From the NCBI RefSeq assembly GCF_034353875.1, contig NZ_CP133784.1:3190501-3254500 (forward strand): DNA of 64,000 nucleotides, read 5' to 3'. Under the pieces are notes generated by a model. It was not told where the DNA came from. It was given only the letters and a program-made list of their open reading frames with translations, and searched no databases. The stretch's first letter is position 1; each line of letters starts with the position of its first letter. The translations under genes were made by a program, and so were the position numbers. The stretch is from Pseudomonas sp. MH9.2. Its GTDB lineage: Bacteria; Pseudomonadota; Gammaproteobacteria; Pseudomonadales; Pseudomonadaceae. Shown piece by piece: positions 41,680-42,776 of this stretch.

Positions 41680-41707
41680 CGGATACTGTATGCATAGACA
41701 GTATCCG
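41680..41707. promoter_or_regulatory. LexA (SOS) box upstream of the radical SAM gene
   Basis: CTGT-N8-ACAG (41686-41701) lies inside TACTGTATGCATAGACAGTA (41684-41703), which matches 17 of 20 positions of the E. coli-type consensus TACTGTATATATATACAGTA. Perfect 10-bp arms CGGATACTGT/ACAGTATCCG extend it. It ends 10 bases before the ATG at 41718, well placed to block initiation. Confidence 0.88.
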
Positions 41708-41717
41708 GAGAACCCTA

Positions 41718-42776
41718 ATGCCCACTGCTCTGCCCCCGCGCGGACGCGGAACCGCGAGTAATCCACACAATCGCTTCGCGCCCAACCGTTCGGTCGCGGA
41801 GGATGACGGCTGGTATCAGGAAGTACCGCGGACCCAAGGCACCGAGGTGTGTAGCGAGACGGCGAAAACCATTATTACGCGCAACACCTCGCCGGACATT
41901 CCTTTCGACCGCTCCATCAATCCTTATCGCGGCTGTGAGCACGGTTGCATTTATTGTTATGCGCGGCCCAGCCACGCCTATTGGGACATGTCGCCTGGGC
42001 TGGATTTCGAGACCAAGCTGATCGCCAAGACCAACGCTGCTGCGGTGTTGGAGCAGCAACTGTCCAAGCCGGGCTACCGATGCGCGCCGATCACGTTGGG
42101 GTCCAATACCGATCCTTATCAGCCGATTGAGCGTGAATACAAAATCACCCGCGCGACCCTGGACGTGTTGTTGCGCTATCGTCATCCGGTGACGATCATC
42201 ACCAAGGGGTCGTTGATTCTGCGTGACCTTGATCTGCTCGCCGAGTTGGCAAAGCAGCGGCTGGTGTCGGTGTTTATCAGCCTGACGACCCTTGATGATG
42301 AGCTCAAACGTATCCTTGAGCCTCGTGCGGCGGCGCCCAAGGCGCGGCTGAGGGCGATTCGGGTGATGCGTGAGGCGGGTATTCCCGTTGGCGTGTTGTG
42401 CGCGCCCATGATCCCGATGATCAACGACAGTGAGCTGGAAAGCTTGCTGGCTGAAGCCAAGGCGGCCGGTGCATTGAGCGCAAGCTACGTGATGCTGCGT
42501 TTACCGCTGGAGGTCGCCCCGTTGTTCGAGGAGTGGCTTCAGGCGCACTATCCACAGCGGGCAGCGCATGTCATGAGCCTGATTCGGCAGAGTCGCGGCG
42601 GCGAGGTGTATGACAGTCGTTTTGGCGTACGGATGCGCGGTGAAGGACCATTCGCCGATTTGCTGGCCCGGCGTTACAGTGTGGCGATCAAGCGGTTGGG
42701 CCTGAACCGGCGCGAAGGCTTTGATCTGGATTGCGACGCGTTTTGTCCGCCAGGGGGGCAGATGTCGTTGTTGTAG
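41718..42776 (+). CDS. PA0069-family radical SAM protein (SplB-like)
   Basis: A 352-aa radical SAM protein with the Fe-S motif CEHGCIYC (Cys73, Cys77, Cys80) and strand motifs TLGSNTDPYQP and TKGSLILRDLDLL. It falls in the Rv2578c/SplB-like group related to spore photoproduct lyase, but no substrate is established. A near-perfect LexA box immediately upstream marks it as an SOS gene, so a DNA-damage role is likely. The ATG at 41718, with GGAG upstream, is preferred to 41673, which would put the operator inside the coding region. Confidence 0.92.
   Translation: MPTALPPRGRGTASNPHNRFAPNRSVAEDDGWYQEVPRTQGTEVCSETAKTIITRNTSPDIPFDRSINPYRGCEHGCIYCYARPSHAYWDMSPGLDFETKLIAKTNAAAVLEQQLSKPGYRCAPITLGSNTDPYQPIEREYKITRATLDVLLRYRHPVTIITKGSLILRDLDLLAELAKQRLVSVFISLTTLDDELKRILEPRAAAPKARLRAIRVMREAGIPVGVLCAPMIPMINDSELESLLAEAKAAGALSASYVMLRLPLEVAPLFEEWLQAHYPQRAAHVMSLIRQSRGGEVYDSRFGVRMRGEGPFADLLARRYSVAIKRLGLNRREGFDLDCDAFCPPGGQMSLL

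Follow-up and report, generated by a model that had tools for sequence, protein, structure and literature searches.

A PA0069 family radical SAM gene of Pseudomonas sp. MH9.2 with a LexA-type operator and a sliding-clamp-binding-like C-terminus

Introduction

Genes related to splB, which encodes the radical S-adenosylmethionine (SAM) enzyme spore photoproduct lyase (SPL), have been linked to the SOS response before. According to the parts of PMC3323433 that were available, LexA sites are present at splB in alpha- and betaproteobacteria, and the trait is called not observed in gammaproteobacteria. SplB is also described, in the accessible part of PMC8565304, as SOS-regulated in several species, with reference to an SOS study of P. 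aeruginosa. From similarly partial texts, SplB-like genes occur in ImuB-C neighbourhoods (PMC3765255), and tea polyphenol induces an SplB gene of P. fluorescens, whose membership in the PA0069 family is unchecked (PMC5435343). Here, we describe a splB-like gene of the PA0069 family in Pseudomonas sp. MH9.2, located in a stretch of 64,000 nucleotides (contig NZ_CP133784.1, positions 3,190,501 to 3,254,500 of the forward strand; hereafter the window, in which position 1 is the first letter), with a LexA-type operator in front of it and a C-terminus that resembles a sliding-clamp-binding motif. PA0069 itself reportedly stands on the list of LexA-controlled genes of the P. aeruginosa SOS study.

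In view of the earlier reports on SplB and LexA, the regulation is not new, and this half of the finding is already known in outline. Unlike what is stated in the available part of PMC3323433, however, a gammaproteobacterium, Pseudomonas, here shows a LexA-type site at a splB-like gene. Within the open-access literature, no paper was found that joins a clamp-binding motif with a radical SAM enzyme or PA0069 with LexA, and the accessible portions of the papers on PA0069 give no function for it. A clamp-binding-like motif together with a missing SPL cysteine was not found in print in that literature either.

Promoter analysis

The operator (41680-41707, no strand assigned) is a palindrome, CGGATACTGT-atgcatag-ACAGTATCCG, whose arms form 10 perfect base pairs, as the original prediction had stated. 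Three of the 20 positions of its core at 41684-41703 (TACTGTATGCATAGACAGTA) depart from the E. coli-type consensus TACTGTATATATATACAGTA. The near-consensus LexA box that had been proposed, with CTGT-N8-ACAG and 17 matching positions, is thus borne out, being the only site with three or fewer mismatches in the window, while none of 100 dinucleotide shuffles has one. The proposed distance of 10 bases to the ATG at 41718 holds for the full palindrome, not for the 20-mer, which ends 14 bases before it. The bare core CTGT-N8-ACAG is weak evidence for a LexA site, as it occurs three times in the window (equalled in 6 of 100 shuffles) and at 77 places in the whole genome, compared to 33 for a reversed control. 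The longer ACTGT-N8-ACAGT is found at only four places in the 5.58-Mb genome, one of them being the present site, with none for the reversed control. Because the promoter of the best lexA match of the genome (254 bits) carries CTGTATAAAAAGACAG, a box of the same type, the box type is right for this host. A second LexA-like gene of the genome has no such box in its promoter. A simple sigma-70 scan of the + strand at the operator gave no promoter-like site. The GGAG at 41707-41710 (+), which adjoins the operator, is probably the ribosome-binding site, judged by eye.

Comparative genomics

A search of 115 relatives with the NF033668 profile gave matches in 77, including 68 of the 71 members of the genus, and 70 of the 77 matched loci were taken into the box counts. 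An exact CTGT-N8-ACAG lies within 250 bp upstream of 64 of these 70 orthologues, whereas dinucleotide shuffles average 0.2. When the 150 bp at the start are scanned for the 20-mer closest to the consensus, 69 of the 70 loci give one with five or fewer mismatches (the exception is locus L057), usually 10-18 bp ahead of the ATG. The original prediction would have failed had most orthologues lost the palindrome; this is not seen, and the conservation supports the SOS-linked radical SAM reading of that prediction at the level of sequence. In one relative (G009) the radical SAM gene is interrupted. Phages gave three partial matches.

Outside the close relatives, the gene is found with other boxes. 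Of 398 genomes sampled from the phylum, 177 had a match, 171 of them over the family cut-off, and 90 of these loci were examined. The exact gamma-type box is present at 9 of the 20 loci of the same class. At the 70 loci of other classes, presumably for the most part Alphaproteobacteria, GTTC-N7-GTTC occurs in 62 (shuffles 0.4, coding-region controls 0) and the gamma-type box in none. A control direct repeat, CTTG-N7-CTTG, is seen at 5 of these 70 loci (shuffles 0.6), in part since the box often reads GTTCTTG. Among 29 loci of Actinomycetota, 19 have GAAC-N4-GTTC and none has either proteobacterial box; locus L262 was dropped here as the same gene as L244, both being kept for the tail counts given below. 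Twelve named plasmid records show GTTC-N7-GTTC in Sinorhizobium meliloti, Methylobacterium aquaticum, Paracoccus ferrooxidans and Azospirillum brasilense, and GAAC-N4-GTTC in Streptomyces and Nonomuraea, with no exact box in 6 of the 12, including Legionella adelaidensis. To our knowledge, Legionella lacks LexA. We take GTTC-N7-GTTC and GAAC-N4-GTTC to be the LexA boxes of their clades. Of 80 named loci from many phyla, 37 carry one of the tested boxes and 43 none, many of the latter coming from phyla with an unfamiliar box. In Pedobacter polaris, CTAATATTTTTAG fits the CTAA-N5-TTAG motif given in the accessible part of PMC8565304, a fit not seen at the other four Bacteroidota/Balneolota loci. 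Similarly, TTAG-N6-TACTA is present in a lexA promoter of all four genomes examined from family f50, and TTAGCAATAATACTA, a box of this type, stands upstream of the radical SAM gene in one of them (G409, locus L120) and is absent in the other three.

Because RNA of the palindrome, which overlaps the ribosome-binding site, could fold on itself, an RNA hairpin, or the operator of another regulator, might be considered instead of a LexA site. This candidate was rejected because of the direct repeat found at the same place in other classes (62 of 70 loci), which is unable to form that hairpin; GAAC-N4-GTTC takes its place in Actinomycetota, and the same box lies in the host's own lexA promoter. 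We regard this explanation as having almost no chance of being right. LexA control of the radical SAM gene, as judged from sequence, is nearly certain. In several clades the gene thus appears to remain under LexA of the local type, with an operator sequence that differs between them, and this is strong evidence for a role in the DNA damage response.

A separate observation concerns the f50 loci without a box (L119, L121 and L122), where CTGAGAC-N8-SSTA-N3-T stands just before the ATG, with looser forms at L124 and L125 (family f58). This element, TGAGAC-N10-TANNNT, is possibly a leaderless promoter. The strict pattern occurs at four places in five genomes, three of them at the radical SAM gene, and its reversed control gave one match per strand in one genome. 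A second regulon was rejected, as the pattern search shows none.

Protein analysis

The gene (41718-42776, +, stop codon at 42774-42776) encodes a protein of 352 aa that belongs to the PA0069 family of radical SAM proteins (NCBIfam NF033668, 502.7 bits, cut-off 360) and also matches PF04055. It scores below the cut-offs of the Rv2578c family (NF038135, 237.1 of 430 bits) and of radical SAM mobile pair protein B (TIGR04470, 86.3 of 410 bits). A structure model (predicted local distance difference test, pLDDT, 89.9; predicted template modelling score, pTM, 0.87) has SPL as its best structural match, with an SPL-like predicted fold and the CxxxCxxC motif. The gene had been called SplB-like in the original prediction, and its family and predicted fold agree with this.

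In an alignment of 64 homologues, the three cysteines of CxxxCxxC (residues 73-80, 41934-41957, +) are present in all 64, as are D132, Q135 and E138 of the TDPYQPIE loop (residues 131-138, 42108-42131, +). The former presumably holds the 4Fe-4S cluster, and the tyrosine before its third cysteine is kept, as in SPL. The TDPYQPIE loop seems to take the position of the SPL loop with Cys140, the hydrogen donor of that enzyme. Beyond the cluster, no column has a cysteine in more than 13 of the 64 homologues, suggesting that Cys140 has no counterpart in the PA0069-type protein. Residue equivalence to Cys140 was assigned by motif, as the profile comparison with SPL covers 71 columns and ends short of this residue; the missing cysteine is thus claimed because the 64 homologues have no conserved extra one.

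A genuine SPL, repairing 5-thyminyl-5,6-dihydrothymine, would agree with the best structural match, the CxxxCxxC and the adjacent tyrosine. The absence of a well-conserved cysteine outside the cluster, and hence of a Cys140 counterpart, and the marginal sequence similarity to SPL (E 0.013) argue against it, as does the statement, in the available text of PMC4929162, that spore photoproduct forms solely in spores. We consider this identity very improbable. Because of the missing cysteine, the chemistry would not simply copy that of SPL.

The N-terminus carries a GRGxxxN...RF motif (residues 2-25, window positions 41721-41790) that is conserved and has very low model confidence; it may be another short motif of PA0069-type proteins, for interaction or for binding DNA. 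In many copies from Actinomycetota (L274, L276, L283, L284, L286 and others), the open frame is about 650-740 aa long and the matches extend over about 1.9 kb, as would fit inteins; an intein-containing Rv2578c family exists in NCBIfam.

The end of the protein, ...CPPGGQMSLL, was overlooked in the original prediction. According to the accessible part of PMC11139829, the clamp-binding motif is Q-phi-x-[LM]-[FL] or Q-phi-x-[LM]-x-[FL], and some of these motifs lie in C-terminal tails, as in Pol II and Pol IV; the word 'radical' does not occur in its main text as available. QMSLL (residues 348-352, 42759-42773, +) agrees with the first form. In alignment A3, Q348 is present in 60 of 63 sequences and L351 in 61 of 63, and the linker before them is mostly variable. 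E. coli MutS shares the five letters QMSLL.

For the tail counts, the last 14 residues were taken at the 205 loci that include their stop codon. Of these tails, 135 fit the published definition: 36 of 53 in the genus and order, 30 of 30 at loci L075-L104, 6 of 12 plasmid records, 48 of 80 named loci and 15 of 30 Actinomycetota. Many Pseudomonas tails miss it because they end in QMSLI; when I or M is allowed at the last place, the counts in the same order are 50, 30, 7, 51 and 20, or 158 in total. Shuffled tails give on average 0.8, 0.9, 0.2, 1.2 and 0.4 matches for these groups, and only 1 of 73 neighbouring proteins has a clamp-like motif. Another 77 loci, outside the 205, end before a stop codon, with the strict motif at the cut end in 37 and not in 40. 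Related proteins encoded on plasmids of Runella, Paenibacillus and Nostoc are without the motif. One of these distant relatives (L110, on plasmid pRUNSL02 of Runella slithyformis, typed conjugative) lies between HipA-like genes and a gene with a UvrD-helicase domain.

Genomic context

At 43 of 182 loci searched, rnhB (RNase HII) follows on the same strand, including 26 of the 30 loci L075-L104. In Methanosarcina sp. KYL-1, a DNA polymerase IV gene (dinB) lies immediately in front of the homologue, the sole such case in the 182 loci. Among 73 same-strand neighbours, RNase HII accounts for five and polymerase IV for one. In archaea, as far as the text of PMC4929162 was available, a SplB-like gene often adjoins NreB, and the PCNA-binding motif of NreA, a relative of NreB, is required for mitomycin repair. 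These rnhB, dinB and NreB contexts are circumstantial, and fit replication-linked repair.

Two further sites of the MH9.2 genome were seen. One, the LexA-type box ACTGTTTATATATACAGT (L001, G000:C1:1572004-1572021), is strong and lies amid repressor-like genes, with a weak LexA-like match (41.5 bits) next to it at 1571403-1571861; this is probably a prophage repressor region. The other is the symmetrical ACTGTCATATATGACAGT (L004, G000:C1:4770790-4770807), about 140 bp upstream of a gene for a 362-aa protein (MSEEVCAIVIDIGSS...) that looks actin-like by eye.

Proposed role

The sequence shows the box and its conservation in clade-specific forms, the family and predicted fold of the protein, the lack of an extra conserved cysteine and the conserved C-terminal motif; we infer LexA binding, clamp binding and a DNA substrate. 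LexA on 41680-41707 would repress the radical SAM gene, and upon DNA damage its cleavage would allow expression of the 352-aa enzyme with its SPL-like barrel. QMSLL would then dock in the motif pocket of the beta sliding clamp (DnaN) and bring the enzyme onto DNA at stalled forks or gaps, where a 5'-deoxyadenosyl radical may act on a damaged base or crosslink, either to reverse the damage or to let translesion synthesis pass it. Taken separately, docking to the clamp is probable from the tail sequences and DNA is quite probably the substrate. The joint reading, with LexA control, clamp docking and a DNA substrate, is the favoured one, at roughly even chances.

Several points weigh against it. 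The exact box is absent at 11 of 20 same-class, 8 of 70 other-class, 10 of 29 Actinomycetota and 43 of 80 named loci, and the gene is missing in 3 of 71 genus members, hence dispensable. Among the 25 of 54 neighbour families listed, those other than the repair genes above are mostly unrelated to repair. The motif is short; 70 of the 205 tails miss the published definition and 47 even the relaxed one, and the QGELF, QGSLF and QQQLF tails of several genomes do not fit its aliphatic second place. Furthermore, the 30 loci L075-L104 are a narrow set of related genomes. None of 30 archaeal loci, most of which look like paralogues, fits the PCNA-motif pattern used (archaeal L312 ends in a partial QLKLTDF). 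In the model, the tail is not clearly disordered (pLDDT 77 for residues 341-350 and 56 for 351-352), and residues 347-351 are predicted with middling confidence as a short helix. This helix and the 47 deviating tails would also suit an SOS-controlled radical SAM DNA enzyme in which the conserved C-terminal Q-L-x-L-F/L makes no clamp contact and instead packs against the barrel or binds a different partner. We hold this to be a serious but rather unlikely alternative, as the kept positions (Q, L/M, L, F/L) match the published clamp motif and, like those of Pol II and Pol IV in the available part of PMC11139829, lie at the extreme C-terminus. Less likely again is an enzyme under SOS control whose substrate is RNA, a nucleotide or a protein instead of DNA, since SPL stands clearly above the competing structural matches, and SOS control and the clamp-like motif both point to DNA.

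Beyond the clamp-docked DNA enzyme favoured here, a wider picture is conceivable, although we would put it at less than even: an overlooked, widespread SOS arm in which template lesions at the replication fork are directly reversed or converted by a radical SAM enzyme tethered to the clamp. Its chemistry would do without the SPL cysteine, LexA would control the gene in several phyla despite an operator that changes with the clade, and archaea might have a parallel through PCNA. The PA0069-type gene is among the more widely shared SOS genes and has no known substrate. A docking peptide, if true, would bring its product to the replisome, and a second radical SAM chemistry for direct reversal of DNA damage would be new.

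Comparison with known systems

The MH9.2 protein is a full-length member of the PA0069 family (NF033668), a hypothetical equivalog without known function, whose definition includes neither a LexA box nor the C-terminal motif. The Rv2578c family (NF038135) is homologous, with the LexA box of its clade at 19 of 29 loci and often the C-terminal motif, but the MH9.2 protein stays well below its cut-off, and the PA0069-type GRG N-terminus is absent in the aligned Actinomycetota. SPL (SplB; PDB 4fhc-4fhg) shares 13% identity with the MH9.2 protein and has a Cys140 with no apparent counterpart there, whereas the MH9.2 gene has an SOS box and its protein a clamp-like C-terminus. Pol II, Pol IV, Hda and others share the tail motif class Q-phi-x-[LM]-[FL], but none of the clamp-binding repair and translesion proteins in the accessible part of PMC11139829 is a radical SAM enzyme, and clamp binding by the MH9.2 protein is predicted. 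Finally, the archaeal NreB with its SplB-like neighbour ties a SplB-like gene to a PCNA-binding repair family, according to the available text of PMC4929162; there, the motif is less clear-cut and lies in the neighbouring protein, whereas in MH9.2 the putative motif is within the enzyme itself.
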